A stretch of DNA of 64,000 nt, taken from positions 9,920,001-9,984,000 of the forward strand of contig OY754464.1 of assembly GCA_963575645.1 (NCBI GenBank), read 5' to 3'. Below the pieces are notes generated by a model that did not search any database, had not been told where the DNA came from, and worked only from the letters and a program-made list of their open reading frames with translations. Positions 5,758-43,664 of this stretch are shown piece after piece; within the stretch, counting starts at the first letter, position 1; the number at the start of each line of letters is the position of its first letter. This DNA comes from Xanthostigma xanthostigma (taxonomy: Eukaryota > Arthropoda > Insecta > Raphidioptera > Raphidiidae). The position numbers were made by a program, and so were the translations under genes.

Positions 5758-6694
5758 TCTATACTAATATGTAAAGCTGAAGAGTTTGTTTGTTTGGTTG
5801 AACGCGCTAATCTCAGGAACTAGTATTACTGGTTCGAATTGATTTTTTTTTTATCGAGGAAGGCTATAGGCTATATAATATCACGCTACGACCAATAGGG
5901 GCGGAGCATCAATGAAAAATATCACAAAATATAACTCAAAATTTGTTCGTCAGACAAAATCTTTTGAACGGTAACTTCGATCATCATGAAATTTGGACAC
6001 AACATTCACCTCGGCAAACTAAGATAGACTATATAAAATCACGCTACGACTAATAAGAGCGGAAAATCAATGAAAAATGTTCCAGAATGTCAGTCAAAAT
6101 TTTTGCACAATATACTTATATTCAGGTGAAATGCCCTAACTGAATATCCCAATATTAGCGGCACACGTACAGAAGCTCGCTTAACTCAGTCGGTAGAGCG
6201 CTCGACTCTTAATCGCAGGGTCGTGGGTTCGAGCCACACCTTGAATGAATATGTTTTTAATGTTTTTTTTTTTATTTTCTACATTGATTTCTTCTAAGGC
6301 TATCATTTAAATTTATTTTAGTTTTATTTACGACTAATTAAAATTAAATAAATCTTATAAATAATAGCTCATTTGAAAACTATTACAGTACCTATACCTA
6401 TATATTAAAATAATTTTCCTACAGTGTTTTCAATTAAATATTTATTATGTTTTATTAATTATACAGTAATTATTGATTTAAAATAAATAATTATTAGATA
6501 CTTAAAAAAAAATATTTACATCAAAAATGGAGGTTTGAGTTTAAAATAAGTAATAAAGCAGGGAACTGCCGAAAACTGCAAAAAATTTGGACCCAACATT
6601 CATCTCGGTAAACTAAGATGAATGTGCGTACTCATGTCCCTTCCATCCCCATTCGTACTTTTGCACCCGGGTGAAACCGGGCGGGGCCGCTAGT
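5758..6694 (+). mobile_element. HT Helitron-like element with internal tRNA-Lys module
   Basis: Starts TCTATACTAATATGTAAAGC and ends GGGGCCGCTAGT, fitting the Helitron signature 5'-TC...CTRRT-3' with no target duplication. The block AACGCGCTAATCTCAGGAAC and the 3' block CCATTCGTACTTTTGCACCC recur in the other HT copies. In the middle lies a tRNA-Lys-like sequence (6175-6247). No RepHel protein, so non-autonomous. Confidence 0.75.
6175..6247 (+). pseudogene. tRNA-Lys(CTT)-like module inside HT element
   Basis: D-arm CTCAGTCGGTAGAGC, anticodon loop CTCTTAA with anticodon CTT, and T-arm GTGGGTTCGAGCC are intact to the eye, while the acceptor ends no longer pair and the anticodon stem keeps only some pairs. 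It sits at the same place in HT copies at 26838 and 42946. Probably non-functional as a tRNA; the A and B boxes could still recruit RNA polymerase III. Confidence 0.75.
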
Positions 6695-7090
6695 ATAAAT
6701 ATAATACAATTACACAAGTTTTTGTCTTTAGATTTCGTATCTTGGATTAGTTAGATCTGTAAAACGATTAGCAAGATTAAAGCCTAAGTAATTTAATGTA
6801 ACCAATTTATACGAATTGTCGCGTTTAATGTGGTGTTGTTTATCAGTTCACATCTAATGCGTTTTTGTGTGCGCAGTTGCGAAGAAAACGTTTAAATACC
6901 CGAACTGAATAGAATTTGCATACTATTAAATTGTTCGCCTGTTCCTTGCATTTACATGTAATATATGCACTGAAGAAGACAGCACGCGCTACGTCTAGAC
7001 AATCTGTGTTTCGTTTAGACGGTTACATAAGTTGTCGAGTGTTGTCAGTAGTATTTAGTATTGTAAGCTGAACGAAATTATGTTGAAGTA
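6695..7090. other. unassigned AT-rich spacer
   Basis: No gene or repeat boundary seen between the HT element and the Harbinger-like element. Confidence 0.45.
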
Positions 7091-7731
7091 AAGCGGTCTA
7101 CACACCTTGATACAAGCTGAGATGCAGGCAACGACTCTATGTTTCATGAAACTTGCATCAGTTGCATAAATGCCTACTTAAATCGAAACCTATTGCGATG
7201 CCTGAATCGACTCCATGTTCATGCAATACAAGAATAGTAGGTTAAGTTATTTTCTAGGTACCTAGTGCTTGACGAATAAAATGAGGTACGTTTTGCCAAC
7301 ACCGGTTTTATTAGCAGTAGTTGGGGCACTCTTTATACTCCATAAAAGAAAAAGGAAATGGTCAAAAAGATGGTTTATAGAAAGAAAACGTTATTCAAAT
7401 GCTTTATTGGAAGAGCTAAAAGTACATTTGTCTTCCAAAGACACGTATGCAGATGATAAATGTTTATGAACTCTTCCCAAAATACACGATCACTTTCCAT
7501 CATGGAATTTACACACACAAACAACAAAGTAACGTCTAAAATGGCGCGGGAAAATAAATTAATATCGTCTTGGCATCGACGCAATTCTATACACGCTGAA
7601 ACTTGCATCAGCATCACCGATTCGGCGTCGTGGCTCGCCGACCAAAATGGGATTCCAGACTCCGAATCTCTGCAGGCCGCAACTGATGCCAAATACGTGG
7701 TTCAGCTTGTATCAAGGTGTGTAGGCCGCTT
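7091..7731 (+). mobile_element. Harbinger-like element, deleted
   Basis: A 30-bp inverted repeat with one mismatch forms the ends: AAGCGGTCTACACACC... at left (7091-7120) and ...GGTGTGTAGGCCGCTT at right (7702-7731). It encloses a short frame (7281-7469) resembling the start of the HARBI1-type nuclease. I could not read a clean 3-bp target duplication, so the exact tips are uncertain. Confidence 0.65.
7281..7469 (+). pseudogene. PIF/Harbinger nuclease N-terminal fragment
   Basis: MRYVLPTPVLLAVVGALFIL, then KRKRKWSKRWFIERKRYSNA and LLEELKVHLSSKD. The basic-aromatic block followed by LLxEL is the usual N-terminal signature of Harbinger nucleases (family form: K-R-W-W...R...G-F-LL-EL). The frame stops at 7467 and the DDE catalytic region is missing, so this is an inactive stub of about 62 residues. 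Its place between inverted termini supports the assignment. Confidence 0.55.
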
Positions 7732-7794
7732 GAAACACTATTTTTGTTGTGAAACATCTATTAGCGCACTTGTCAGTACTATAATTTAATATAA

Positions 7795-7955
7795 ATTTTA
7801 TAGTTCGAATTTATTTATGCTTTTATGACAATAATTTATTGGTATCATCGACTTATAACCTTTTGTAAAAATGTATTATGGAAAAGTTCCCATTTAGAAT
7901 TCGACTTACATTTGATTGGGACTGTAACGCATCAACCTCCTTAATTATTAGTGTC
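7795..7955 (+). repeat. interspersed repeat R, copy 1
   Basis: Matches 48100-48245 on the opposite strand: GGTATCATCGACTTATAACC, GAATTCGACTTACATTTGAT and ACGCATCAACCTCCTTAA are shared. Class unknown, no coding capacity. Confidence 0.7.
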
Positions 7956-8320
7956 TTTGTCAAAAGTCGAATTGTCTTATTTCGAGCTTTGGTTCATTGG
8001 TACACAATACAGCGGGCCCATATATAGCATTTCAAAGCCATTTATTGTCTGCATATACAGCATGTACTGTGTCCGTAGATTGAATATTCCAAAAAAGAAT
8101 TTGCATGTAAAATAGAATCCGTTTTTTAGATAGATTCGATGGAACGTGTTTGCTTAACTTCTTTTTTTATATAGCTACTTTCGGTGTCAGTAAGTTGTAT
8201 TATCATACTGGAGGATTATTATCGAGATATCTTTTTGTAAAACCCTGTCCACACTATTTTCACTTTATTTAGCTTGTTGCGTTGCCAATCGGTAACGTCA
8301 GTACCGCGTAGATAAAACTT
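7956..8320. other. unassigned spacer
   Basis: No gene or repeat recognised. Confidence 0.4.
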
Positions 8321-8503
8321 TATAAAAAAAATTCCAGCCAATTGGGCGACGGGACCATTCCAACTTCAAAAATGTTGACATTTGATTAAAATAAAGAAAA
8401 TAAAATATCTGATATCGCGTGAGGTGACGTGGGTAATGGCTAGTATTCAATATGATATTTGCTATTCTTTGGCATGGTTACCAACATAATATGTTCCACG
8501 TGG
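8321..8503 (+). mobile_element. interspersed repeat K, copy 2 (uninterrupted)
   Basis: Same order of blocks as 4243-5043 (CCAGCCAATTGGGCGACG, GATATCGCGTGAGGTGACG, ATGTTCCACGT) but without the inserted MITE, so it works as the empty-site control. Confidence 0.75.
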
Positions 8504-8734
8504 CAGACTGAAAATATCGCTATTATTAGATCTGATTTCAGAGGTGTACGCGCAGTATTGTCATTATCAGTCTATGAAAATTTCGACTATTTCTTATTTA
8601 TTTGACTTTGCGACTCGACTACCCTTAAAGACAACGTTTTACGATTTTCCTTTCAGGTGTTTCTATTAGCTTCTATAAACTTAGATATAATTAAAAATAT
8701 AATTAATATAGAACATGCTGCTGTTATTAATTTA

Positions 8735-8880
8735 GGCCTAGCACACATGAAGAGCGTTCAACGCGCGTTGGCTCAACGCGCGCTTACAATTTCTATACAA
8801 TTGTATAGAACTGTTTATATGATAACGCGCGTTCAACGCGCCACTAACGCGCGTTGAACGCCTCTCATATAAACTAGGCC
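8735..8880. mobile_element. 146-bp Harbinger-like MITE, GC-rich palindrome
   Basis: Ends GGCCTAG and CTAGGCC are inverted repeats, flanked by TTA (8732-8734, 8881-8883), the target duplication typical of PIF/Harbinger. Arms of about 38 bp carry GCGTTCAACGCGCGTT, and this motif recurs four times in the element. No protein. Confidence 0.75.
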
Positions 8881-9349
8881 TTAAAGAGAGCAAGTGTGAC
8901 CTAAAAATATGTAGGTATATAAAAGAACGTTACGTTATTATAAAATAATGTTAAGAAATTTTTATTCTATTTACACCTATTTTTTTTGTAATTATTTTAA
9001 AACTTAAGTACAGTGAGAACCTGCTGCTTATTAAAATGTGAATTTCATACATCGTTTGTTTCTCTTTTAATCCTCGTTAAATTATGTTTTCCGCGGAAAT
9101 ATACAGTGGGGTTGCGATAATCGGACATTTGTGGTATTCAAATAAACGAAGTTGCCTGATTATTAAGACCGCGTTGTTATCTCATCATTTCGACACTGGA
9201 CATAAATTTCTATTTAATGAAGATCAAATATTAGATAAAGAGTCAAATTGGAAGAAACGCAATATCAGTGAAATGTGTTTTCTTATGCCGACACTTCACA
9301 TGACTATTTGTATTTGTGTATTTGGCATATTTGCCAAACAATTACCAAG
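8881..9349. other. unassigned; no convincing gene
   Basis: An open frame begins at 9084 and runs to 9488 but crosses into the inverted-repeat cluster that follows and matches nothing I know. I treat it as chance. Confidence 0.4.
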
Positions 9350-9715
9350 TGTGGAGGGTCTATTTGACAAAGTGTTGGCCTTATTTGCCTATTCGACAAA
9401 TAAGGCCAATACCAAATACGCGTTACCGTGCGCTTGTCGGTTTTTCGAGGCACATCAAAGGAGTCAAATAGGCAAATACGGCAAATAAACCGTCCACACA
9501 ATGGCTATATTCAGAAGCGCACGCGTCGTGAACCTGTACGGACGTGCAGTATTTTTGTGTCTGTGCTGTGAGCGAGAACTGGAACAATTACTATTGAAAA
9601 TGAATTGGGACAATGAAACAGTGCTAAAATTCCTGGAATTTTGAACCTTGCGTTCTGCTGCCAAATGTTTGTGTGTGTGCTATTTGACTGCCATGTGTGG
9701 ATGGTCGTATTTGCC
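9350..9715. mobile_element. fold-back MITE pieces with GTGTGGA..TATTTG termini
   Basis: GTGTGGAGGGTCTATTTG near 9350 is inverted at 9484-9501 (CAAATAAACCGTCCACAC), enclosing a 12-bp-arm palindrome TTGGCCTTATTT / AAATAAGGCCAA (9377-9412). A third end, TGTGTGGATGGTCGTATTTG, lies at 9691. This suggests two overlapping or tandem copies of one small MITE. Confidence 0.6.
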
Positions 9716-10135
9716 TCTATTTGCATGTTTGTCTTGAACGTCATATATTTTGCCAAATAAAACAAACACCCAATAGCGAACACAGATAGCCACCTTTAGA
9801 AAAAACAATTCTATTAATTATTATAGAACAGACACTCAAAATTTAAGTAGTCAGTATAACTATGTTATGAAATTAAACTAACTTTCAAATTTTTATTTTT
9901 TATTGTTTAAAAATTTATACATAAACTTGTTGCCATGTTTTTGTCTTATGTACCTTAACTTTTGTTAATTGCTATGGTTAGTAATTAATGTTTATTTTCA
10001 TAATTACTGTTTTGAATTTTCATATTGTACTTGAACAAGTCTAAGTCTATAGACGAAACGTCGTACATTAATAAATCTAACTTTTTGTCCACAATCCTGC
10101 GATTTTTCTTATTTATTGCTGTAATAAAACACACT
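9716..10135. other. unassigned AT-rich DNA
   Basis: Contains a short GTCTATAGAC palindrome followed by GAAACGTCG near 10047, similar in style to the tails at 10155 and 53165, but no gene. Confidence 0.4.
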
Positions 10136-10272
10136 TGAAATTCTACAAAATTTTTCTCTCTCGATGATCGTTTCGGATAGTCAGTCCATCTTCAGGAGTA
10201 CAGACACATAATGAAGATGGACCGATTGTCCGAAGCGATCGTCGATAGAGAGAAAATATTTTGTAGATTTGT
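10136..10272. repeat. inverted repeat, ~60-bp arms
   Basis: Left arm AATTCTACAAAATTTTTCTC...CCATCTTCA and right arm TGAAGATGGACCG...TTTTGTAGATTT pair around a loop of about 18 nt (ACAGACACATA). Probably a fold-back remnant. Confidence 0.7.
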
Positions 10273-10750
10273 TATTAATCTTGTTCTACTTAGTATAGTA
10301 TGGCATAGCTGCATAAAGAAGAAGAATTTCCTAAAGTTCTGTTACAAATATTATCAAAGGACAAAGTCGAGTCAGTCGAAATTTTCGTGGAATTTTAAGA
10401 AGTTTGTTCTTATTGATTATTATTTATATCTTTTGTAATTATAATTCACTCGTTTATCTTCTCCCACCTTGCAGTACATTTTCTTCTTTGACAATTATAT
10501 ATTCCCGTTTCTTTTATTCGCGCCAATTCGCAGTTTCATAAATGCTTTTTAAATAATTTATTTTATTCAAAAGAAAATATGTATTGTTATAGAAGAAACG
10601 CTTCGTTATTTGTGAAGATCTTACAGTTAAATACAAAAAGAAAACGTTTTTATCTAAAAAACTTTTTAAATTGTGCTCATTGTGTTTATCAGTTGACATT
10701 CTGATGTTTAACTGCTGTGTATTTTAGATATTAAATTTAATTAATTAATA
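10273..10750. other. unassigned AT-rich DNA
   Basis: No coding pattern or repeat boundary recognised. Confidence 0.4.
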
Positions 10751-10935
10751 CCGAGCGGTGTAGCGTAGTGGTGAGAGCACTAGACTCGCATTCCGGAGGT
10801 ACCGGGTTCGAATCCCGGCGGGATGTGACTGGGACTTTTTCCTGCTGCCCCTGCCTTTCGCCGAGAAACGATCATTCCTGTACCAGCCATCTTGTTGAAG
10901 TTTTCCATGGTTTTCCTCAATAATTAAAAAAAAAA
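10751..10935 (+). mobile_element. tRNA-derived SINE, short form
   Basis: Head CCGAGCGGTGTAGCGTAGTG ... GGTACCGGGTTCGAATCCCG carries A-box- and B-box-like polymerase III promoter parts; the body (CCTGTACCAGCCATCTTG, TTTTCCATGGTTTTCCTC) matches the longer SINEs at 53344 and 54983. This copy stops after CTCAATAATT and ends in an A-run, so it lacks the distal half and the TTA-type tail. Confidence 0.8.
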
Positions 10936-10950
10936 TATCGATGTGGCTCA

Positions 10951-11442
10951 AAGGAGCGTCACTAGACAGTGCGCACTACTCAAGAGTGCAGACTGCAGAG
11001 GTGTGAACTGTCATCATGCATGCTCAGGAGTCATGTAGCATTGCACAATGCATAGCACAATACACACACTCAACTCTGAGCTCATTTTCATATGATTCTG
11101 ATCTTATATTATTCGCATTTTGGATAAACTATAAAGTATAATAAAAGCTTAACAATAATAATGTTTGTTGTTACAATATTAGATATATCTTTGTCAACGA
11201 CGTCAATGTGAATGGTTTAAGTCACTGTAAGCTTAGTACTACTACACTTACAGTGTGTCATTCAACATTAAATGACCCAGCAAAATTCACTAGTGCCTCT
11301 GTGACCTGGTGCTGTGTGCGCTCTGTAAATGTGCAAATGCAACAGTACAGAACAGCTTAGCACGGTGCAATGGCGCTCGGAGTGAGTCATTCACAATAAA
11401 AAGAGCGACTTACTCCGCTCCGAGCAAGGAACGACACATCAC
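10951..11442 (-). mobile_element. hAT-1 MITE, reverse copy, one end missing
   Basis: Aligns with the reverse complement of 41637-42264 from GGAGCGTCACTAGACAG to ACGACACATCAC. The right element tip (at the left here) is absent and the other tip is interrupted by the next MITE. Confidence 0.8.
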
Positions 11443-11446
11443 CTTA

Positions 11447-11601
11447 ATCTACATTGGACTCGTAGTTCTCCCGTCGGACATCAGAAGAAAGGCAAACATC
11501 AATATAATGTAGGCACCTACATTATAATCTTTACTTCCGATTTTGTCCGACGTCGGCCGACATCGGATGGGGAGAAATACCGATCCAGTGTATGTCCAGC
11601 C
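11447..11601. mobile_element. small MITE with TTA duplication
   Basis: Imperfect inverted ends (ACATTGGACTCGTAGTTCTCC against GGAGAAATACCGATCCAGTG) flanked by TTA (11444-11446, 11602-11604). Fits Harbinger-type targeting. It sits at the worn tip of the hAT-1 copy. Confidence 0.5.
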
Positions 11602-11948
11602 TTAGCAGTGGTATAATTTCTCATTGTTAGCGATAATGTGACAATCGTTCACAAAATGTGTTTACAAAATCAAGTACTTAGTAATGAATGACTATTTATT
11701 CAAAGGTTACACATAAATATCTCAACACATTTGTGGTTTGTCAAAAGCTACACCCAGTACGTGTAGTTGTAATTCTACTAATGCGTTTAACACGTGTTCC
11801 TTCTGTCCTCAGTTCAACGTTATTCCATTCGTTTCTCACATCGCATAAATATATAAATGAAGCCACAAGCCAAAGTGCTTTTTGTGTCGACTTTTGGATA
11901 TTTTTTGTGAGATAATTTTACCTCTCGGACTCAACTGGGGAATTGTAC
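11602..11948. other. unassigned spacer
   Basis: No gene recognised. Confidence 0.4.
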
Positions 11949-12235
11949 TGTAACAAAACTGTTGTAGTCCGTGACGGAAATTATTTATTTGCAATAATAA
12001 ATGTTTAACAAAACAGTAAAACACACAAACGAAAGCGTACTTCTTTAACTTAACAGAAATAATAACGTGAACAGAAACAAAACTAAAAGTTCTAAACTAT
12101 AAAATAAAAAAACTAAGTAACAGAATATAGTCACTAAATTATGTACACAAAATATTTACATCACAGGAACACAACACAAAGTTTATCAGCACACTTGTCT
12201 ATTAACTATAAATGATTTATGTAAAACCACTCACT
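11949..12235 (-). mobile_element. LTR fragment, gypsy-like family
   Basis: Begins TGTAACAAAACTG and follows the same block order as the solo LTR at 18187-18765. A partial, aged fossil without internal region. Confidence 0.65.
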
Positions 12236-12363
12236 AAAGTTATAATTTATTTCCACAGTATATTTATGTTATTTATGTTACATAAGCAGCAGTTATTTTT
12301 TTTTTAATTATTGGCTTTTGTTTTTAGTAACATTTAGCCACGACAAATATGCATTTATTATTT

Positions 12364-12680
12364 ATTAATAAATAAAATTATCGACCAATTTTTCAGACAG
12401 TATATTAACAAAAAATATCAATAATACATTAACGTTTCGATCCGGATTTGGATCTAAAAATATAAAAAAGTACCTAATTAATAATTAGTTTCTATTTATT
12501 TTTAATATTATAGAAATATTGAAAAAATAATAACAAACAATGTTTTATTACGTAGTCATGGAAATAATTGTGAGCATCTATAAAGAAAGAAAAATTATTA
12601 AAAACAATATTATTTCAAAATAATATTATATACCTATATTACTGAAGAGTTCTAATCAGACGTTAATCAAAGATTTGAAC
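12364..12680. repeat. repeat U pieces
   Basis: Holds AATAAAATTATCGACCAATT (12366 on), TTAACGTTTCGATCCG, and GAAGAGTTCTAATCAGACG (12641 on). The same blocks occur at 53045-53230, and the first also at 15688, 16200 (inverted) and 34098. Class unknown, possibly the tail of a retroposon. Confidence 0.6.
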
Positions 12681-13419
12681 ATTTATTATTTAACCATTCA
12701 TTGCTTAAAATTAATTAATTAATTAGACAGGAACACAATAGAAGGATGGACCATGGATAATAAGTAAAGGTTTAATGGAGAGCACGAGCCAAGCGAACAG
12801 GATGATACACACAAGACCAGCCGTTGATTAAACAGATTAAAAATAGGATGAGTCGATTTTATATTAATTAAAATTAATTAGAGACTTCAAAAAAATCTAA
12901 TTACATAACCGCAAACTTGTGGAGGCATGACTTATTTAATTATTACAAAAATGTGTTTAATATAATATTGAAGATAGGAATTAGGAATAATGAGAATAGC
13001 TACGAGAATTGTAAAGCAGTTAATTTAATTCTGGAAATTAACGAGTTTTTCAAAGAGATCCTGTTCCGTTTGCATGACCGAACTTGTATCTTCTTTTTTA
13101 GATACAAGCAATAATTTGTGGCAGTTTTATATCCTTCATGAAGTGTTTAAAACTTCTCTCTTCTGGGTTTGTCGAGTGAAATGTTATATTACGAGTATCT
13201 GCAGAATATACGTGCTGCAACAAAACATACATTTTCGTAATTTCTGATGAAAATGACTTTAACCCTTTCGGTCCTTTAAATATCAAATATAAACATTTCA
13301 TTGTGCTTGGGGTTTATCTGAGATGTGAGCATGCCAAACAAATCTATGTGGGCTCGAAATATCGAGTCAAGTGTTGACCGCAGTCATCGATTTAAACAAA
13401 GCTGGTAAAAGTGTACATT
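12681..13419. other. unassigned AT-rich DNA
   Basis: No convincing gene. Short frames at 12917 and 13098 (reverse) show no family pattern. Confidence 0.4.
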
Positions 13420-15672: not shown

Positions 15673-15687
15673 AACAAAGAATTTTAC

Positions 15688-17700: not shown

Positions 17701-17715
17701 TCTCTTCATCGTTGC

Positions 17716-26837: not shown

Positions 26838-27258
26838 TCTATACTAATATATAAAGCTGAAGAGTTTATTTGTTTGTTTGGTTGAACGCGCTAATCTCAG
26901 GAACTACTGGTTTGAATTGAAAAAAAAATTTTTTGTTGGATAGGCCATTTATCGAGGAAAGCTATAGGCTATATAATATCATGCTACGACCCATAGGCGC
27001 GGAGCATCAATGAAAAATGTTGCAAAATGTATCTCAAAAATAGCTTCTGTTCAGATGAAATGCCGTAACTACATATATCAATATTAGGACGTACATTCAC
27101 AAGCCCGGCTAGCTCAGTCGGTAGAGCATGCGACTGTTAATATCAGAGTCGTGGGTTCGAGCCCAACGTTGGGCGAATATATTTTTAATTTTTTTTATTT
27201 TCTACATTGCTTTCTTCTAAGGCTTACATTTAAATTTATTTTAATTTTATTTTCGCAT
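26838..27258 (+). mobile_element. HT Helitron-like element, 3' end lost
   Basis: TCTATACTAATATATAAAGC start after an A, then the HT blocks up to the tRNA module (27103-27175) and the following TTTCTACATTGCTTTCTTC. Similarity stops near 27258, so the CTAGT end is missing. Confidence 0.75.
27103..27175 (+). pseudogene. tRNA-Lys-like module, anticodon changed to GTT
   Basis: Begins GCCCGGCTAGCTCAGTCGG and ends GTTGGGCG, so acceptor stem, D-arm and most of the T-arm still pair. The loop reads CTGTTAA, turning the lysine anticodon CTT into GTT (asparagine), and the anticodon stem has two mismatches. Best preserved of the three modules, but unlikely to be a working tRNA. Confidence 0.75.
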
Positions 27259-29638: not shown

Positions 29639-29829
29639 GGTTGTCTGTAAAGTCGGTTTACGGACGATAGTTTAACGTGATAACGTATTCCGCTCGAATA
29701 TCATATTTAATAATACATTACTGCGCTCTCGCTTACACGCACAGGGTCAGGCGGAACGTTATGGAACGTTACACTTTTTCGTGCGTGCAGCTGGTGTTTC
29801 ATCAATTTATAAGACGTATCACGTCAAAA
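29639..29829 (+). mobile_element. AATT-targeting small element L, copy 1
   Basis: GTTGTCTGTAAAGTCGG and TTACGGACGATAG at the left, CATCAATTTATAAGACG and TCACGTCAAAA at the right; inner ACGTGATAACGT and ACGT-ATCACGT are inverted. AATT precedes it (29635-29638), and the right flank is altered where the satellite starts. Confidence 0.75.
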
Positions 29830-29831
29830 AC

Positions 29832-30411
29832 TTAGTCACCATCTTTAGAAGTCCGCCATATTGGATTTAGAGTGACGTCACTTTATTTTTCGAGTTATTC
29901 TCAGCAAGCCCTTTCATTTGATACCCATATTGTAAGAAAGCATAGTAAAATTAGTCCGCCATCTTTAGAACTCCGCCATATTGGATTTAGAGTGACGTCA
30001 CTTTATGTTTCGAGTTATTTTCAGCAAGCCCTTTCATTTGATACCCATATTGTAGGAAAGCATAATAAAATTAGTCCGCCATCTTTAGAAGTCCGCCATA
30101 TTGGATTTAGAGTGACGTAACTTTATGTTTCGAGTTATTCTCAGCAAGCCCTTTCATTTGATACCCATATTGTAGGAAAGCATAATAAAATTAGTCCGCC
30201 ATCTTTAGAAGTCCGCCATATTGGATTTAGAGTGACGTCACTTTATGTTTCGAGTTACTCTCAGCAAGCCCTTTCATTTGATACCCATATTGTAGGAAAG
30301 CATACTAAAATTAGTCCGCCATCTTTAGAAGTCCGCCATATTGGATTTAGAGTGACGTCACTTTATTTTTCGAGTTATTCTCAGCAAGCCCTTTCATTTG
30401 ATACCCATATT
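29832..30411 (+). repeat. 120-bp satellite array, left block
   Basis: Five copies of a 120-bp unit holding GTCCGCCATCTTTAGAAG, CGCCATATTGGATTTAGAG, TGACGTCA and CAAGCCCTTTCATTTGATAC, with phase points at 29868, 29988, 30108, 30228 and 30348. Units differ by only a few bases. The block is cut by a LINE at CCCATATT. Confidence 0.95.
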
Positions 30412-31243
30412 AAATTTGACTCAAAGCTATTTTTCACAGACCATGTAATTAAAATCATCAATGAAGCATATCGTATGCTAGGTATTATAATCAGGTTCTC
30501 CAAAGATTTCAATTCGACAAACGTTATGTTCACTCTTTTTTATACACTCGTTCGTAGTAGACTAGAATATGCTTCCATCGTATGGAGTCCAGGGTATCAG
30601 GTTCATATTCGAAACATAGAAAAAATTCAAAGCAGATTTTTGAGATTTGTATTTTTCAAATTATTCCACACTTATCCCACTTTTATGCCCTACCGTGATC
30701 TACTCAATCTTTTTAATATTACATCGCTGGAAGGTAGAAGGAATTGTAGCGCCATCATGTTCTGTTTTAAATTATTTCACAACATCATAAGTGACAATTA
30801 TTTATTATCGCAATTCCAGTTTAAAATTCCACATCTGGCAACTAGACCAACACATGAGATATTTATGTACTCCAGAATCAATACTCGTCAACACGAAAAT
30901 TCACCAGTATTGCGAATGGCAATTCTTATAAACCTTATAAGCGTAACTTATCCTGCAATTGATTTTTTTAATGATAAATTGTGCAATTTTCTTAAAGTTA
31001 TCGCAAAGCATTACGCAAATAAATAATGGCTTAAAATTGTAACCTTATTATTATTATTATTATTATTAAATTATTACTTATATCCAAGCAAAACTGTTTT
31101 GGTCTGACTAGAATTTAGAATTTAGTTTCTGTTATATGATTTTTTTCCCTCTTTTAAGTGCATGTTCTCTTATATATATATATGTATTTTTTTTGTATTC
31201 TCTGTAAATGGGTCTTCCTGTTGAGAATAAATCTATTATTATT
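30412..31243 (+). mobile_element. 5'-truncated LINE inside the satellite
   Basis: Flanked by direct ATATT (30407-30411, 31244-31248). The open frame to 31026 reads KFDSKLFFTDHVIKIINEAY, RMLGIIIRFSKDFN, LVRSRLEYASIVWSPGYQVH and IEKIQSRFLRFV: the region after the catalytic core in Jockey-type LINE ORF2 proteins (F..HI..I..A...LG, then LEYA..VW.P). It stops after HYANK, followed by a 200-bp 3' region and an ATT-type tail. The uninterrupted frame points to a recent insertion. By chance the satellite is open in the same frame, so a fused 264-residue frame runs across the junction. Confidence 0.9.
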
Positions 31244-31248
31244 ATATT

Positions 31249-33716
31249 GTTGGAAAGCATAATAAAATTAGTCCGCCCTCTTTAGAAGTCCGCCATATTG
31301 GATTTAGAGTAATGTCACTTTATTTTTCGAGTTATTCTCAGCAAGCCTTTTCATTTGATACCCATATTGTAGGAAAACATAATAAAATTAGTCCGCCATC
31401 TTTAGAAGTCCGCCATATTGGATTTAGAGTAATGTCACTTTATTTTTCGAGTTATTCTCAGCAAGCCCTTTCATTTGATACCCATATTGTAGGAAAACAT
31501 AATAAAATTAGTCCGCCATCTTTAGAAGTCCGCCATATTGGATGTAGAGTGACGTCACTTTATTTTTCGAGTTATTCTCAGCAAGCCCTTTCATTTGATA
31601 CCCATATTGTAGGAAAGCATAATAAAATTAGTCCGCGATCTTTAGAAGTCCGCCATATTGGATTTAGAGTGACGTCACTTTATTTTTCGAGTTATTCTCA
31701 GCAAGCCCTTTCATTTGATACCCATATTGTAGGAAAACATAATAAAATAGTCCGCCATCTTTAGAAGTCCGCCATATTGGATGTAGAGTGACGTCACTTT
31801 ATTTTTCGAGTTATTCTCAGAAAGCCCTTTCATTTGATACCCATATTGTAGGAAAGCATAATAAAATTAGTCCGCCATCTTTAGAAGTCCGCCATATTGG
31901 ATTTAGAGTGACGACACTTTATGTTTCGAGTTACTCTCAGCAAGCCCTTTCATTTGATACCCATATTGTAGGAAAGCATAATTAAATTAGTCCGCCATCT
32001 TTAGAAGTCCGCCATATTGGATTTAGACCAATGTCACTTTATTTTTCGAGTTATTCTCAGCAAGCCCTTTCATTTGACACCCATATTGTAGGAAAACATA
32101 ATAAAATTAGTCCGCCATCTTTAGAAGTCCGCCATATTGGATTTAGAGTAATGTCACTTTATTTTTCGAGTTATTCTCAGCAAGCCCTTTCATTTGATAC
32201 CCATATTGTAGGAAAGCATAATAAAATTAGTCCGCCATCTTTAGAAGTCCGCCATATTGGATTTAGAGTGGCGTCACTTTATGTTTCGAGTTACTTTCAG
32301 CAAGCCCTTTCATTTGATACCCATATTGTAGTAAAGCATAATAAAATTAGTCCGCCATCTTTAGAAGTCCGCCATATTGGATGTAGAGTCACGTCACTTT
32401 ATTTTTCGAGTTATTCTCAGCAAGCCCTTTGATTTGATACCCATATTGTAGGAAAGCATAATAAAATTAGTCCGCCATCTTTAGAAGTCCGCCATATTGG
32501 ATTTAGAGTGACGTCACTTTATTTTTCGAGTTATTCTCAGCAAGCCCTTTCATTTGATACCCATATTGTTGGAAAGCATAATAAAATTAGTCCACCATCT
32601 TTAGAAGTCCGCCATATTGGATTTAGAGTAATGTCACTTTATTTTTCGAGTTATTCTCAGCAAGCCCTTTTATTTGATACCCATATTGTAGGAAAACATA
32701 ATAAAATTAGTCCGCCATCTTTAGAAGTCCGCCATATTGGATTTAGAGTAATGTCACTTTATTTTTCGAGTTATTCTCAGCAAGCCCTTTCATTTGATAC
32801 CCATATTGTTAGAAAGCATAATAAAATTAGTCCGCCATCTTTAGAAGTCCGCCATATTGGATTTAGAGTAATGTCACTTTATTTTTCGAGTTATTCTCAG
32901 CAAGCCCTTTCATTTGATACCCATATTGTAGGAAAACATAATAAAATTAGTCCGCCATCTTTAGAAGTCCGTCATATTGGATGTAGAGTGACGTCACTTT
33001 ATTTTTCGAGTTATTCTCAGCAAGCCCTTTCATTTGATACCCATATTGTTAGAAAGCATAATAAAATTAGTCCGCCATCTTTAGAAGTCCGCCATATTGG
33101 ATTTAGAGTAATGTCACTTTATTTTTCGAGTTATTCTTAGCAAGCCCTTTCATTTGATACCCATATTGTAGGAAAACATAATAAAATTAGTCCGCCATCT
33201 TTAGAAGTCCGCCATATTGGATGTAGAGTGACGTCACTTTATTTTTCGAGTTATTCTCAGCAAGCCCTTTCATTTGATACCCATATTGTAGGAAAGCATA
33301 ATAAAATTAGTCCGCCATTTTTAGAAGTCCGCCATATTGGATTTAGAGTGACGTCACTTTATTTTTCGAGTTATTCTCAGCAAGCCCTTTCATTTGATAC
33401 CCATATTGTTGGAAAGCATAATAAAATTAGTCCGCCATCTTTAGAAGTCCGCCATATTGGATTTAGAGTAATGTCACTTTATTTTTCGAGTTATTCTCAG
33501 CAAGCCCTTTCATTTGATACCCATATTGTAGGAAAACATAATAAAATTAGTCCGCCATCTTTAGAAGTCCGCCATATTGGATGTAGAGTGACGTCACTTT
33601 ATTTTTCGAGTTATTCTCAGCAAGCCCTTTCATTTGATACCCATATTGTAGGAAAACATAATAAAATTAGTCCGCCATCTTTAGAAGTCCGCCATATTGG
33701 ATTTATAGTGACGTCA
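31249..33716 (+). repeat. 120-bp satellite array, right block
   Basis: Twenty-one more units (phase points 31305 to 33704, all 120 bp apart except one 119-bp step near 31745). Variants travel together: GTAATGTCAC units, GGATGTAGAGTGACGTCAC units, and GTTGG/GTTAG against GTAGGAAA linkers, giving local 240- and 360-bp higher-order patterns between 32864 and 33584. The array is open in one frame for long runs only because 120 is a multiple of three; I do not call it coding. Confidence 0.95.
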
Positions 33717-34600
33717 CCGATTTTCCCCAAAAAATTTACAAAAACTTCTAGTAAAAATAGATAGAGTAAAAACCGTTTTAAAAACTATATTATTATTATA
33801 TAAAACAACATTATAAGAGATATATTCTTTTAAGCATGCGCCGATGTTCCCCAAAAACAATAGGCCACTTCATATTTGCATATCAAACATCCTCCCAAAA
33901 TTTGGTTTCAATCCGCTCTTCCTTGATGTCGGAATGATAAGAAATGTCAAAAGTGACGTTTGCATCAGCTGTCAAAGTATTAAGTTCTAATAATTAGTTA
34001 TTCAAATTGTTAACTTAGAAGGCGTTGCTTTTCATAAATATTTCAAATGGCATCCGTTTTTGAACAAATGCTATCTCCTTTGTTTTATTATTGTCATAAA
34101 TAAAATTATCGACCAATTTTATTTTAAGACAGAACATACGCAATAATTAAATTACCATGTTATACCGTGCAACAGAGAGAGATAACCGAAAGATGTTTGC
34201 TATCGGTTATATCAGATTGAATTTATTTCTATATAAATGTGTATAAGAAAAGTGATTGGGCGAATTCTGTTGTACGAAATTTATGTAAAATTTTCTCCTC
34301 TTTCGTTTAAGACAGGTTTCGAACCGATCTGATTTAAATTGAGCGAGTTATAAGCGAAAAACTTCGTTTTTTCTAAATTGCTCCCCTCTGGAGCAAAAAT
34401 TCAAAAATCGGGCGACGTTAGGATTTAAGTTACCCGGAGACAAATCGAACAAAAAAAAGTTTTTTAAAATCGGTTAAGTCGTTTGGGCTGTACGCTGGAT
34501 ACAAAAAGCGTGACTCACAGATTCACAGATTCACAGATTCACAGATTCACAGACAAAGCGAGTACATATAGGCGCTTTAGCTTACGCTATTCGCGCCTAA
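33717..34600 (+). repeat. repeat N, last unit and 3' part
   Basis: Continues the ~123-bp array (CGATTTTCCCCAAAAAAT, AAGCATGCGCCGATG), then CAAAATTTGGTTTCAATCCG and GTTTAAGACAGGTTTCGAAC, shared with 48400-48835, and ends in a tail with ATTCACAG repeated about five times (34506-34552). It looks like the 3' half of one larger element into which the satellite and element L were placed. Confidence 0.65.
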
Positions 34601-36328: not shown

Positions 36329-37123
36329 TTAGATTGTGGATTATAGACGCTTGACAAGTGAGAAATTTATATATAACTTCCTAATGTGTGTCTATTGGTC
36401 CAAATGTTCATCTTTCCGCGCCCTCGAGAAAGCCCCTCGTTAACCTAGGATGCTGAAACTTTGTGGTATTGAAGGAGATTTATTTGGTTGAAGAACAATT
36501 GAAAAAATAAGCTTGACCAGAGTGTCGCTTGTGGCCACCGTTTCGAAAAATATATTTTTGGAACAAACTTCTATTAACAATTTGTAGTTTGAAGTTGGGA
36601 AAAAACCTAATGAGTTCGAATTTTTGGATTTTCCCTCCAGGATTAGTGAGGTTTTTTAAAAGCTTTTAGTATTGATAAGTATACGAGATACTGATATTAA
36701 AAAAAATTGTGCAATGACAAAGTTCGATTATTAAATTATTATTATGTCCCGGCATAGGTATAATAAATGTTTTAAAATTATGTTGGGGTATAATAAAAAT
36801 TATTTAAACTGTGTACACATCTTAATAAGTTGCATAGTTCTATTTTTTCTTGTGCGTTGAGGATAAAATTATTACCACGCACAATTGCACATACCGCTAA
36901 ACAAGCGGTATGTGCTTTATTATCGCTTTGTGCGTCAGAGATGACTTTCGTTCATACAAGAAGTTATATCTAAGTTAATTTTACAAGAAATCCATTCAAA
37001 TTGTAGCTTTTTGAAAAGAGGAGATTCTGTTCTATATAACAGAACCATTTTTAGATCGATTCGAGTTCATAATTACTACTAAAAATGTAATTGAAAATCA
37101 CGAACAGCAGTTGTCTGTTGGTC
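36329..37123. other. unassigned; small hairpin at 36887-36915
   Basis: GCACATACCGCT and AGCGGTATGTGC pair perfectly around AAACA; outer CGCACAA and TTTGTGCG also pair. Otherwise no gene. Confidence 0.5.
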
Positions 37124-37170
37124 TGTACGTACGTACGTATGTACGTACTAGTGATGTGCCGGATATCATA
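37124..37170. repeat. (GTAC)n run and a lone hAT terminus
   Basis: A GTAC/GTAT microsatellite (37127-37148) is followed by TAGTGATGTGCCGGATATC, a typical hAT end. I see no matching opposite end, so the element is probably truncated. Confidence 0.5.
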
Positions 37171-38247
37171 CAGTGGAAAACTTGCGGAGTGCACTTTTGG
37201 TTTTGCCAACTATTTTTATTTCTTTCAAAGATTTCAAATGAAAAATAAATTTTATTTTTAAGCGAAACGTGAGATATTTATCAGGTAACATCAATGGATA
37301 AAAATACAGAGACTCGGATCCTATAGGGGATCCAGATGCAAAGATGCAGATCAAAGATTTATTATCTAGTAGATACATTACATTATCTCATGTATCTAAA
37401 TTATGTCATCATATCGAGATATTAGTCTCCGGACGTGAGAATGTGCTTTGACATTCTGCGGACACAATTATGCATAATCATTACATTATCTAGTTAAACG
37501 CACCACTGTGTAACGTATAGAACTTGAGAAGATAACAAGGTCAACTTAACTATATTGACATATATAGAGTCCTCTCTTTATAGTCCGGGAGGTGGTGTCA
37601 AAATTTTTCAGTGATTTATCTCCGACTCAAATGTAATTGATTGAAGAGTTTAACCATTACTCTGTTCGAAATCGAAAGTCAGTCAGCGCGACCGCGGTGG
37701 GTGTGGGCGTGGGAGGCTGTGAAACTCGTCGGAAAAACTATGAAAAAAAGTGATAAATCTGCCGATGAAAATTTGTTAGATTGTAAATAATTGATGATTA
37801 AACGTGAAAATACTCGTCAGTCACTTTCCCGACGGGGGAAACATCGTCAGTCAGAGGCTTGAAGCCTTTAAAAGAATATCAATTCCAGTGTTTGAATTTA
37901 AAATCGATATTTTCAGAACGAACAGTAGGAACTGAAATGTAGAATAGTCAAAAATAAAATTGATTAGTTGATTACAAAAACCTGTGTTTTATTCATCATC
38001 AAACCTTAACCACCCCGTCTTGCCCCACTTTTCCCTAAATTTCAACACAATTGACCCAGCGGTTTGGCCGTGAAAGCGTAATAGATAAACAAACTTTCGC
38101 ATTTATATTAGTATGGATTAGTAAATATTATGTAGTTTTTGTCATTTCAAGTAGCGATAATTATAAGTCATCAAAATCGGTCCGGGGGTTTCTGAGATAA
38201 GCGTTTCTGAAACTTGTACAAAAACAGTACTTGGCCGATTTTCGTGA
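37171..38247. other. unassigned region
   Basis: A GC-richer patch at 37680-37730, a CGTCAGTCA motif repeated at 37815 and 37850, and a generic element tail near 38060-38117 (TTTGGCCGTGAAAGCG ... ATTAGTATGGATT). No gene recognised. Confidence 0.4.
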
Positions 38248-38997
38248 TCACTATTATATATATTAATACGCTAATAAGCTTTAAGATGTTTGCCTCCCTT
38301 TTTAGAAAAAACCGCACAATTTCTCCACATAAATTATATACCATTTTACAGATAATTGCTTGCTCTACTGACATCGACAACTAAAAAATTTATTATTGCT
38401 ATTGTTTTTGTGAATTAATTAAATTAAACTCTGAACAACGTCTGCCATGTGACGGCCGCGGCGTAACGTTAACACTTCGATCTGTCATCTGACCATCATA
38501 TTGTAAATACTGCATACTGCCATCGGACTGGCAACGCTGAACAACGCTTTTGCTACTTGCGCCTCTGTAATCTGTATGACAATTTTAGAAAAATATTTCT
38601 TTTACAACAAAAAGAAGAACGTTATAAGCAGTGTGCAAAATTAGAAACGAATTGAATACCTGCAATCATATTTAAAAAAAATTAGTTGTCTGTAAAGTCT
38701 GTTTACGGACGATAGTTTTACGTGATAACGTCATAAAGAAACATTGATGAACTCTCTGACGTCACGCGAGAAGAGAGAGAAATGCGTACAAGCCGACGCT
38801 TGGGCCGATCGTGCCTCTCTATCGCTTATACCGCGCTCTCGCTTGCACGCTCAGGCTCAGGCGGAACGTGACACTTTTTCGTGCGTGCAGCCGGTGTTTC
38901 ATCAATTTATAAGACGTTATATCACGTCAAAACAATTTTGTAAAGTGATAATTATTATACTTATTTAGTGCGAATAATTCGCACAGGTCACGCTAGT
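38248..38997 (+). mobile_element. HM Helitron-like element, copy 1, with insertion
   Basis: Starts TCACTATTATATATATTAAT and ends with the palindrome GTGCGAATAATTCGCAC, then 7 nt, then CTAGT followed by T: the hairpin-CTRRT layout of Helitron 3' ends. Internal ACAATTTCTCCACATAAATT is shared with copy 2. Element L sits inside at 38684-38933. No Rep/helicase. Confidence 0.8.
38684..38933 (+). mobile_element. AATT-targeting element L, copy 2
   Basis: GTTGTCTGTAAAGTCTG ... ATCACGTCAAAAC flanked by AATT (38680-38683, 38934-38937). HM copy 2 has the empty sequence at this place (TATTTAAAAAATAATTTTG near 39905). 250 bp, non-coding. Confidence 0.85.
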
Positions 38998-39473
38998 TAT
39001 ATTTATAACGTAGTCTCGAATCTTGATGTTCAAGTCGCAGGGTACTCTACCTAGTATAATATAGTACAGCTTATGGCATGGCGGACAGCTGTTTACCGAA
39101 CGCATTTCGGCACTATAATCATTAAATTAACATGTAATAACATCAACGCCATGCACTAGCTAATTCTCCTTGCCTCTATATTGTACCGTTAACCTGTTTT
39201 CCTTGTCTTACGATAGAACGAACTGTTTCTCCTTGTCTCTGTCTTGTCTACTGCGTACGCATATTGTGCTGGATAGAGAGGGAGAGAGAAAGCTCCTTTG
39301 TTTCCGCTCAGATATTTAAGTTTAGCAACTAAATTTAACGATAGTCGTTAAGTTTTAGGAGCGACCCTATTATGTAACACGATAAGTGATTGTATAAATG
39401 ATTATGATTTTTTTTATCGATGTAGTAGTACAATGATCTAATTGGTCTTTAAATAAAATTATAAATAAAATAA
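38998..39473. other. unassigned spacer between HM copies
   Basis: No gene recognised; pyrimidine/purine-rich patches around 39260-39300. Confidence 0.4.
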
Positions 39474-39984
39474 TCATCATATATATTAATACGCTAAGGT
39501 TAAAGATGTTTGCCTCCCTTTTTAGAAAAAACCTCACAATTTCTCCACATAAATTATATATCATTTTACAGATAATTGCTTGCTCTGCTGACATCGACAA
39601 CTAAAAAATGTATTATTGCTTTTGTTTTTGTAAATTAATTAAAATACAGCAACGCTGAACAACGTCTGCCATCTAACGGCTTTAATTTTGAAACAGCGAG
39701 CAACGCTGAACAACGTCACAGCAATGCTGCATGATGCCATCTGGCTTAGCTCAACGCTTTTGCTACTTGCGCCTCTATAATATGACAATTTTAGTTAAAT
39801 ATTTCTTCGATCTGTCATCTGAGCTTCATATTGTAATACAACAAAAAGAAGAACGTTATAAGCAGTGTGCAAAATTAGAAACGAATTGAATACCTGCAAT
39901 CATATTTAAAAAATAATTTTGTAAAGTGATAATTATTAATATTATACTTATTTAGTGCGAATAATTCGTACAGGTCACACTAGT
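39474..39984 (+). mobile_element. HM Helitron-like element, copy 2
   Basis: TCATCATATATATTAATACG start, hairpin GTGCGAATAATTCGTAC, CTAGT end at 39980-39984. Shares the internal order with copy 1 about 1 kb upstream, but without element L. The tract around 39650-39780 contains extra GCAACGCTGAACAACG repeats. Confidence 0.8.
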
Positions 39985-40158
39985 AAAATTTGATTTGCTT
40001 AAGGCGAGGTCTGAATATGATCACAACGAGATTGAAAAATTGAATTGAACAAAACAATGTCGTGGTCGACAATGCAGAGTGTTAATGTTGTTTCAAAAAG
40101 ACCCAACGTTTTATTAATGTCTCGAATTATTTAGGTGATTTATGAATTTTCCTATTTG

Positions 40159-40410
40159 TCTATACTATAGTATCATAAAGAGGTAAAGCTTGTAAGTTTG
40201 GATGTAGGAAGTAATCTCCGAAACCATTCATCCGATTTCAAAAATGTTTTGACCAATATTTAGAATATATGGACCTTCAGGATAGACATAGGCTATATAT
40301 TATCGCGTTAAAATAAAAGCTCTTTTCGTCGAGACCAATTTTGCAACGTAAGTCGACGAAAAAACGGTTGCAATCTACAAATTCAGGTGAAGCCGGACTG
40401 AGCCTCTAGT
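40159..40410 (+). mobile_element. HQ Helitron-like element, copy 3
   Basis: TCTATACTATAGTATC start, GACTGAGCCTCTAGT end. Central GTAAGTCGACGAAAAAACGG and CATAGGCTATATATTATCGC match 36101-36328. Confidence 0.75.
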
Positions 40411-41628
40411 TAATAGATAAAATCGTAATGAATCTCTATATAACTGTTAGCCATTATGACTTCATATTAATAAATCTAGAAGTAGAGGCAATGCCAAATG
40501 AATTTTTACTGTTCCCTCACATAAATTTAGTAAGGTATGCCTTACCAAAAAATAAATAAATAAAAATAGGAATTCGTAGATGAAAAATATTTATGCATTT
40601 TTTTTCTTTTTGTTTCAGGTAAGCATCTTACTCAGTTTTGTTTTCTGCTCTAGTCAATGGATGATGTAAGGTTTATATTTTTTTTACCTTTAAGATGATC
40701 GTGGTGTAAAAAATATCTAAAAATTTACCTGTACCTACGTTTATTTTTTTAAGTGTTGATTGATTTATGCCGTGCCGTTCTGGACCGAGCTTGATTAATT
40801 CATTGCTGGAAAAAATGTTTCTTACATTACAACGAACAACAATTAACTGTAGGTCCCAACCAATCCTGGATCTTCGTGGTGGACATGATGAATTTGGGAC
40901 CCAAATATGTGGTTCCCAAGAGTTTAAAGTTACGCATCATCGCATTTGTTATTGTCCGGCACCTTCATAAAAAGATTTCTATTCTGTCACCACCACTCCC
41001 CAAAATCATCTTTTTCCCAGAGTATGGGTACCAAAGGTTTTGTGTCTCAGATACCCTACTTACGGTTGAGATAAGACCGGAAATTCTGATCGAAATTCCA
41101 AATGTTTTAATGACGCCAGACACTTGAAAAGGTTGATTCTTTTGAACGGAAAACCAAATGTTTCGTCTCTAGTAAGCTAATTTGGTATTATAATTATTCA
41201 GAATATTTCGATAGTATATTAATTTTAATCAAAATTCGTGTGAGATTGACTGAATGTTTTGCATAAGCAATATCTGTGCATAAAATTGCACCAAACATTT
41301 TAAAATATGTAAATACAATCATAATACTGATAGATGAATCGATACTCAATATTTCAATATCCGTACAACAAAGGCAAAACGCTTGCATAAAATACCTATC
41401 TAAATGCATGGAAAAGTTATTTATGCGTGGGCTGTGGTACGCCGTGTGCATTTCCTATGTACATGTAAGTTTTGCTCTTCCGCTGAATTTGTTACATATT
41501 ATAATATATTTAAAATTTATTTTTGCCCTTTTTGTCTGAATCTAAGCCGAAGTTTACAAGTATTTTACTTTCTTATTAAACCCAATATGCATTCGGTTTT
41601 ATACAACTTGTCTAACGTAGGAAGGATC
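40411..41628. other. unassigned; no convincing gene
   Basis: Overlapping frames at 40767-41127 and 41194-41539 show no known domain and no coding bias that I can see. Confidence 0.4.
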
Positions 41629-41636
41629 ATAGATAC

Positions 41637-42264
41637 TAGTGATGTGTCGCTCCTGAGCGAGTCGTTCATATTGAACGAATCCTTTTTCGGAGCGGAGCTA
41701 GCGCTCTTTTTTTTGCGAATGACTCACTCCAAGCGCCATTGCTCTGTGCTGAGCTATTCTGTATTGTTGCATTCGTACATTTACAGAGCGCACACAGCAT
41801 AGGCCACAGAGGCACTAGTGAATTTTGCACGTACGGAGTTATCTTTGCTGAGTCATTTATTGTTGAATGACACTGTAAGTGTAATAGTACTATGCTTATA
41901 GTGACTTAAACCATTCACATTGACGGCATTGATAAAGATATAGGTAATATTGTAACAATAAACATTATTATTGTTAAGCTTTTATTATACTTTATAGTTT
42001 ATCCGAAATACGAATAATATATTAAGATCAGAATCATATTAAAATGAGCTCAGAGTTGAGTGTGTGTATTGTGCTGTGCATTGCGCAATGCTACATGACT
42101 CCTGAGCATGTATGATGACAGTTCAGACCTCTGCAGTCTGCACTCTTGTGTAGTTCGTACTGTCTAGTGTCGCTCCTTTGAACGACTCCCTCTTAGCGAC
42201 TCTTTTTAGTGAGCGGAGCGCACGGAGCCAGCTCCCAATAAAGACTCATGTGGACACATCACTA
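41637..42264 (+). mobile_element. hAT-1 MITE, best preserved copy
   Basis: TAGTGATGTGTCGCTCC at the left and GTGGACACATCACTA at the right, flanked by ATAGATAC on both sides (41629-41636, 42265-42272). A perfect 8-bp duplication and 12-bp inverted tips place it in the hAT superfamily. Subterminal GAGCGAGTC/GAACGACTC blocks form extra inverted repeats. No transposase. Confidence 0.95.
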
Positions 42265-42509
42265 ATAGATACCTACTCACAGTCACATGTACCTAAGTCA
42301 AAGAAAATGCTCTTCCTAGACGTAATCACAGCCGAAATAAGTTGACTATATCCGTCACTCAATGCTGTATCTGTTAGTTTTAAATAAATAATATTTATGA
42401 TTTTGGTAGCATTGTTCTAATAATTTATCTAAATGCATATCATTATCTTACAATAGGCATGATGACAGTATAAATAAAAGAATCAAAGAAAAATGGTTTT
42501 AGAGAAAAA

Positions 42510-42640
42510 TATATGTCATAGGTTATTTTTGAGGTTAGTAACTTGCAACTAACGAAAGCCATACTATTTTTACTACTAGGTAACTACTTTTAAGAAAATA
42601 CTTAATATTATAAATCATATCATTAAGTAAATTTACAAAC
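42510..42640 (-). repeat. interspersed repeat T, copy 1
   Basis: Reverse-complement match to 56868-57000: CATACTATTTTTACTACTAG, TTAATATTATAAATCATATC. Class unknown. The surrounding 42273-42945 holds no gene. Confidence 0.6.
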
Positions 42641-42945
42641 TTTTCTACGAAATACCTCTGCACGACAGCCCTACATCCATAAAAATGCAATAATTTGCGT
42701 TAAAATTTAATTTATTGCTGAAAACATGTTTTTTTCGGAAATAGACGTGTACCTACATTATAGAACTGGATTTCAAAATCCTATTTTATGTCTTCGACTA
42801 GGTGATGGTATTGGGAAAGAAAATACTTGTCGGAACCTTTCCGTGATGATTGGTAGGTCTGATGATCATTTGGCTTAGTTTGACGTAATATTATTTTTAG
42901 TACACTTTAAGCTTTGTTCAAAGAAATTACACACTTTTATTAATA

Positions 42946-43664
42946 ACTAGCACCCGGGTGCAAAAGAACGAATGGGGAAGGAAGGGACATGAGTACGCAC
43001 ATTCATCTTAGTGTACCGAGATGAATGTTGTGTCCAAACTTCATAATGATCGGAGTTACCGTTCAAAAGTTTTTGTCGTTAAAAAGCAGTACCTATTTAT
43101 ACTTTTTTTAAGTAATAAATTTCTTTTAATACCTATAATAAGTATTTAATTGAAAACACTGAAGGAAAATTATTTTTATAGTTGTAACAATTTTCAAATG
43201 AGCTATTAATTAGATTTATTTAATTTTAATTAGTCGTAATAAAATTTTAAAAAATTGAAATGTAAGCCTTAGAAGAAAGCAATGTAGAAAATAAAAAAAA
43301 AATAAATAAAAATATATTGGCCGACGTGGGGCTTGAACCCTAGACCCTGGAATTAAGAGTCTTACGCTCTATCGACTGAGCTATCCGGGCTTGTAAACTT
43401 GGCGCGCTAATATTGCAATATTTAGTTAAAGCATTTCACCTGATAATATTTGTCGGACGGACTAATTTTGAGATACATCTTGCAACATTTTTCATTGATG
43501 TTCCGCTCCAATTGGTCGTAGCGTAATATTATATAGCCTCGATAAATGAGCTATCCAACAAAAAATAAATTTCAATTCGAACCAGTAGCTACTGAGATTA
43601 GCGCGTTCAACCAACCAAACAAACAAACAAACTCTTCAAATTTATATATTAGGTAGTATATAGA
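42946..43664 (-). mobile_element. HT Helitron-like element with tRNA module
   Basis: The reverse strand runs from TCTATATACTACCTAATA to GCACCCGGGTGCTAGT. It has the full HT order: 5' block AACGCGCTAATCTCAG, tRNA-Lys module (43318-43390), AT-rich middle, GGTAACTCCGATCATTATG and the 3' end. 719 bp, non-autonomous. Confidence 0.8.
43318..43390 (-). pseudogene. tRNA-Lys(CTT)-like module inside HT element
   Basis: The reverse strand reads GCCCGGATAGCTCAGTCG ... ACTCTTAATTCCAGG ... GGGTTCAAGCCCCACG. Anticodon CTT and a near-complete B box remain; acceptor and anticodon stems have mismatches. Same position within HT as 6175 and 27103. Confidence 0.75.

Follow-up and report, generated by a model that had tools for sequence, protein, structure and literature searches.

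A tRNA-Lys-derived segment carried inside a non-autonomous Helitron family of Xanthostigma xanthostigma

Three copies of a repeat family in a 64,000-nucleotide stretch of the Xanthostigma xanthostigma genome (hereafter the window; contig OY754464.1 of assembly GCA_963575645.1, our C1:9920001-9984000) carry a tRNA-Lys-like segment at one internal position, and three shorter relatives lack it. We examined these copies together with others retrieved from the searched genome, which comprises 623 Mb in 28 contigs. The tRNA-carrying element is a non-autonomous Helitron, and the tRNA pieces are passengers of this Helitron, not separate insertions; a captured tRNA-Lys gene that was amplified along with its carrier is the probable origin of the family.

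Copies in the window and the ends of the element

The copies in the window and their parts are given below, with c1, c3 and c4 denoting subfamilies of the tRNA-bearing form and X the inserted segment that contains the tRNA. Identities refer to a canonical animal tRNA-Lys-CTT sequence that was also used as the query for the genome search.

5758..6693, plus strand: tRNA-bearing Helitron copy of subfamily c1, complete from the TC start to the CTAG end
5866-5944, repeated at 6024-6102, plus strand: internal duplication in the 5758 copy, an extra piece of the Helitron 5' half
6175..6247, plus strand: tRNA-Lys-derived module of the 5758 copy, anticodon CTT, 59/73 identical to the canonical sequence
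26838..27252, plus strand: tRNA-bearing copy, most similar to subfamily c4 and truncated 3' of the tail
27103..27175, plus strand: tRNA module of the 26838 copy, anticodon GTT, 68/73 identical to the canonical sequence
42947..43664, minus strand: tRNA-bearing copy of subfamily c3, without the right half of the 3' stem region, ending in ...GGGTGCTAGT
43449..43455, minus strand: CGACAAA, left repeat beside X
43079..43448, minus strand: inserted segment X, 370 bp, made up of a 58-bp leader, the tRNA, T-runs and an AT-rich tail, and absent from the tRNA-less copies
43318..43390, minus strand: tRNA module of the 43664 copy, anticodon CTT
43072..43078, minus strand: CGACAAA, right repeat beside X
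45732..46045, minus strand: tRNA-less copy, 5'-truncated
60374..60669, plus strand: tRNA-less copy without the 3' end
62238..62579, minus strand: tRNA-less copy with an altered 5' end and an intact CTAG end

The original prediction, made from the window alone, had placed tRNA-Lys-like segments at 6175-6247 (+), 27103-27175 (+) and 43390-43318 (-), and these do share the same internal place, orientation and tail, with the CTT anticodon in two of the three and GTT in the third (27103). The 340-420 bp of 5' sequence that it put ahead of the tRNA needs correction, as the distance from element start to tRNA measured 417, 265 and 274 bp in the three copies. The first of these values is due to the internal duplication, and the 5758 copy that contains it looks like a recombinant of tRNA-less and tRNA-bearing copies. 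All three of the short tRNA-less copies predicted at 45731, 60374 and 62237 are real, but only the last has both ends. The first T-run behind the 6175-6247 module lies at 6254-6258 and the one behind the 27103-27175 module at 27182-27186; among the three window modules, only the one at 27103 was recognized by the prediction tools, ARAGORN reporting Asn (anticodon GTT) and Rfam a match at the gathering threshold.

Across the genome, copies of the element start with TCTATACTAATATATAAAG and end with CACCCGGGTGAAACCGGGCGGGACCGCTAG. These are the TC start and CTRR end of Helitrons; among 91 complete copies, the exact TCTATAC... start was present in 67 and a ...GCTAG end was recognized by pattern in 83. 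The base preceding the element was A in 91% of the 67 copies and the base following it was T in 88% of the 83, and both were found in 50 of 60. Repeats shared between the two flanks reached at most 4 bp, with a length distribution like that of shuffled flanks, indicating insertion without target duplication. One related empty site is consistent with this: the joined flanks of one locus (L073) match a second locus (L010) without a gap at the junction (81/90 identical). Window positions 5050-4988 also match these flanks but lack one base close to the junction, where two further candidates differ by 7-8 bp. The TC and CTAG ends and the A|T target therefore establish the element as a non-autonomous Helitron, the class to which it had been assigned from the window.

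The 3' flanks of the 83 copies also showed a preference beyond the T at +1, favoring A, T, A and A at positions +7 to +10 (76, 67, 72 and 61%, respectively), as if the insertion machinery read T-N5-ATAA.

Genes encoding RepHel proteins are present in this genome (89 matches to Helitron_like_N, many of them in open frames near 1,555 amino acids). Those compared over 3.5 kb (e.g., L095-L108, with frames near 1,555-1,560 amino acids) form two groups that are about 90% alike, and members of the same group are 99.8-100% identical, so an autonomous Helitron has recently been active. Viral contigs yielded 0 matches to the tail and 0 to a 20-base pattern from the 5' end.

Copy number, linkage and state of the tRNA module

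Exact matches were found at 3,812 genome places for a 24-mer directly behind the tRNA, at 6,291 for a 27-mer from the 5' end of the element and at 2,185 for the junction of the tRNA-less form, compared to 0 for the reversed controls. The relation between module and carrier was assessed in 39 loci chosen by the 5' 27-mer alone out of the first 42 places listed for it on C1; the remaining three, all tRNA-bearing, were already in the sample chosen by the tail, and one locus (L082) was only partly fetched. Twenty-four of the 39 loci were tRNA-bearing and 10 were complete and tRNA-less, in keeping with the predicted coexistence of the two forms, and five were truncated, nested or unscorable. Leader and tRNA occurred in the same order and orientation in all 24 tRNA-bearing loci, and the tail was also present in 23 of them.

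The original prediction had named independent insertion of the tRNA pieces as the result that would overturn it. Approached from the side of the module, however, the Helitron was found in every set of loci: on at least one side in 12/12 loci chosen by the tail (on both sides in 10, with a tRNA match in 11), beside the tRNA in 30/30 fetched loci obtained with the canonical tRNA-Lys-CTT query, and upstream in all four loci fetched from the 14 places at which a pattern of the 3' end of X lacks the Helitron continuation. None of these 12 tail loci, 30 tRNA-hit loci and four of 14 odd 3' boundaries contained a free copy of X with target duplications of its own.

The tRNA-bearing copies fall into four subfamilies, c1 (n = 9), c2 (n = 29), c3 (n = 36) and c4 (n = 23). 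Two duplicates of window copies (L001 and L009) were left out of consensus building together with one copy longer than 1,000 bp (L047), and the subfamily and ARAGORN tallies omit L001, L009 and copies longer than 1,000 bp. Copies of c1, c3 and c4 were fetched largely with queries that contain the module; the 34 copies referred to below as unbiased consist of 25 from c2, eight from c3 and one from c1, with none from c4, the most tRNA-like subfamily.

The tRNA no longer has the features of a functional tRNA-Lys gene, namely a cloverleaf with a paired anticodon stem. The consensuses of c1, c2 and c4 keep 2/5, 3/5 and 2/5 of the anticodon stem pairs, respectively (c3, which has a deletion, was not scored). 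The c4 tRNA is identical to the canonical sequence at 70/73 positions. ARAGORN made no call in the 34 unbiased copies; overall it called 19 of 97 copies, 14 of them as Lys(CTT), and 18 of these 19 came from loci obtained with the tRNA query, the other being the window copy at 26838.

The internal signals for RNA polymerase III (Pol III) are better preserved, with an A box and a B box, each with at most one mismatch, in 29/34 unbiased copies, mostly 44 bases apart; reversed elements, used as a control, gave a B-box match at the same threshold in 1/34. A run of at least four T follows within 49 bases past the B box in 31/34 unbiased copies, and the three exceptions are copies with a partly deleted tRNA and boxes that could not be placed. 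Because of this T-run, transcription by Pol III is expected to terminate within the element, which speaks both against a short interspersed nuclear element (SINE) and against an effect of the promoter on neighboring DNA. The suggestion that the module could act as a Pol III promoter for nearby DNA is accordingly at odds with the position of the T-runs, and such a role would be a weak prospect judging from the sequence.

Origin of the inserted segment

The consensus of the tRNA-less form (345 bp, from 13 copies) runs uninterrupted through the site at which X is inserted. In c3, X lies between two CGACAAA repeats, the left one present in 28/36 copies and the right one in 21/36. Since X is bounded by such repeats in one subfamily, a tRNA-less ancestor probably gained the tRNA segment. 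Mean identity over the four tRNA-bearing consensuses was 94% for the tail, 93% for the 5' part and 89% for the 3' part, compared to lower values in the tRNA (84%) and the leader (77%), and the common tail fits a single gain.

We therefore favor, as the probable course of events, the capture of a tRNA-Lys gene and its amplification as a Helitron passenger. A short tRNA-less non-autonomous Helitron (~345 bp) would once have gained a stretch of host DNA comprising a tRNA-Lys(CTT) gene together with the leader and 3' terminator of that gene, presumably in a single event during repair or replication. Rolling-circle transposition, dependent on proteins that a putative helper provided in trans, would then have multiplied the composite into thousands of copies, in which the tRNA persists as a passenger with A and B boxes but without the pairing of a working tRNA. 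Should Pol III still bind, it would be expected to produce an RNA of tRNA size that terminates at the T-run immediately following the tRNA. The ends of c2 copies differ from their consensus by 2.9% (180/6,169 cells) and the ten tRNA-less copies of the 5' sample by 4.7% (114/2,405). The difference hints at a later spread of the main tRNA-bearing form, but no more than that, as the tRNA-less set may mix subfamilies.

Several observations weigh against this account. Only c3 has both CGACAAA repeats: the right one is found in 19/29 copies of c2 and 7/23 of c4, the left one in none of either, and c1 (n = 9) has neither, which later deletion and recombination would explain. The two repeats would be accounted for just as well as a target duplication made by a transposon on insertion, and the variability of leader and tRNA would also be compatible with more than one event. 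No donor locus of X was found. A 5-bp stem lies 12 bases before the 3' end in one of the two forms folded, and the folding energy of the 3' stem is no better than that of shuffled sequences (of 200 shuffles, 94 and 107 reach the same or a better energy). Finally, no autonomous partner with the ends of the tRNA-bearing Helitron was found, the probes matching only short low-complexity stretches in the flanks read, which stop short of the ends of the RepHel elements.

The canonical tRNA-Lys-CTT had no exact place in the genome, which is partly given as N, and 21 places with at most three mismatches; patterns related to it had one genome place each. The search that yielded the 30 fetched tRNA-hit loci scored 40 of 1,557 candidates. 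The absence of an exact match may reflect the N stretches or a host sequence that differs from the canonical one. We drew no inference that Helitrons are the only source of tRNA-Lys-CTT in this genome, given these two possibilities.

Alternatively, all of X or its terminal part may stem from a tRNA-derived SINE, or from some other small transposon, that had inserted into the Helitron and has since been propagated with it, a situation reported for Metulj in Heliconius. The 7-bp repeats beside X in c3 would fit such an insertion, and a SINE joined to a mariner and to a Helitron-like element has been described (PMC4016481). The layout of the element nevertheless differs from that of a SINE, as originally predicted: the tRNA does not head the mobile unit but lies mid-element, 265-417 bp from the element start, and the sequence behind it would not be transcribed through from a tRNA head, since the T-run follows soon after the B box, directly behind the tRNA, in 31/34 copies. 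In addition, X begins 58 bp upstream of the tRNA in the 43664 copy, its end is neither poly-A nor a short tandem repeat, and the loci searched for a free copy yielded none. Taken together, these features make a SINE or other transposon an unlikely source of X. An origin from a long terminal repeat (LTR) of the Helenus type was rejected because the ends of X are not TG...CA.

The distribution of sequence variation bears on the history of the module after its gain. In the 25 unbiased c2 copies (CpG sites and homopolymers excluded; sampling sites also masked when private and shared variants are separated), divergence from the consensus was lowest in the 5' and 3' parts (2.7% each) and highest in the tRNA (9.0%), with 6.9% in the leader, 5.3% over the 60 bases that follow the tRNA and 4.0% over the remaining tail. 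The 36 copies of c3, mostly fetched by the module, showed no clear excess (5' part 3.9%, leader 4.6%, tRNA 4.4%, 3' part 3.8%). Private mutation in c2 was not raised in the leader and tRNA (ratio 1.18, site bootstrap 0.78-1.72, reached by 903/5000 permutations), whereas shared variants there were 4.1 times those at the ends (0/5000 permutations) and 2.1 times those in the tail (139/5000). Because the excess is shared and not private, it arose among source elements, through either constraint on the ends with none on the interior or a faster change of the module in active sources. Transcription-linked mutation in individual copies was rejected, since total divergence is raised in c2 and private rates are not. 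Selection on the Pol III boxes was likewise not adopted: the c2 B box is 4.5% diverged compared to 10.0% for the rest of the tRNA, but the A box (9.2%) is not less diverged, and the sites are too few for a claim.

It is very doubtful that Pol III still transcribes the module in source copies, in which case the Helitron would have spread thousands of short promoters with their own terminators. Were this so, the fourfold excess of shared variation in the leader and tRNA could be read as the trace of transcription-linked mutation in active sources. The same excess, together with the lower identity of the leader and tRNA than of the tail, 5' and 3' parts across consensuses, would also be explained if the module had been gained or replaced more than once, by repeated capture or by exchange among tRNA-bearing copies. 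All four tRNA-bearing consensuses nevertheless share the tail that adjoins the tRNA, and the position of the module is constant; we consider repeated gain highly improbable. Independent insertions at a shared site, to which the varying anticodon triplets might point (GTC in 14, CTT in seven, ATC in one and TTC in one of 34 copies, and not read in 11), are contradicted by the constant leader, order and orientation in 24/24 loci, 23 of them with the same tail, and are practically untenable.

Two other features of the window lie outside the Helitron copies. Two Rfam tRNA matches of nearly the same sequence, with CGC in the anticodon region, are located at 10759-10820 (+) and 53674-53735 (-), the second within repeat family D12; the pair appears to represent a tRNA-derived SINE distinct from the Helitron module. 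At 29708-33843, two blocks are built from a 120-bp tandem repeat with units that are open throughout as reading frames, and the ~650-bp gap between the blocks holds the end of a 264-amino-acid open frame (30232-31026) that appears reverse-transcriptase-like by eye.

Relation to known systems

The sheer number of Helitron-borne tRNA-like pieces is of practical concern for annotation, since thousands of them can inflate tRNA counts or pass for SINEs, and some are still called as Lys or Asn by tRNA finders. Searches of the open-licence literature brought up no account of a Helitron family that has a tRNA gene in its interior.

Among Helitrons, the non-autonomous Lep1 elements of Lepidoptera (PMC4038834), compared by description only, share the TC start, the CTRR/CTRY end, the A|T target, the lack of target duplication, an acquired internal sequence and a very high copy number. 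The acquired sequence of Lep1 is described as lying at the 3' end, whereas here it lies mid-element and includes a tRNA gene. In Arabidopsis, a tRNA-Cys cluster overlaps annotated Helitrons (PMC10701932) and likewise places tRNA genes within Helitron-annotated DNA; that cluster is a local tandem array whose Helitron nature was not confirmed by its authors' tools, in contrast to the dispersed single elements with defined ends found here. The Helenus non-autonomous LTR retrotransposons (PMC10886601) provide a further case of a mobile element other than a SINE with a tRNA-derived part, and their hymenopteran families were aligned to tRNA-Lys-CTT, but the tRNA resides in the LTR of a retrotransposon and not in a Helitron.

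The nearest precedent is the uncharacterized composite of the Metulj SINE and a Helitron-like element in Heliconius (PMC4016481), a repeat of 21,461 reported copies that likewise combines Helitron-like sequence with a tRNA-derived part bearing Pol III boxes. Its tRNA-derived piece is a SINE, the data are given there as not shown, and the mechanism of its expansion was left open. In the X. xanthostigma family, by contrast, the segment resembles a tRNA gene with a terminator and has no SINE layout, and the ends, the target and the tRNA-less form are described. This family thus offers element ends, a tRNA-less form, the borders of the insert and a high copy number together.

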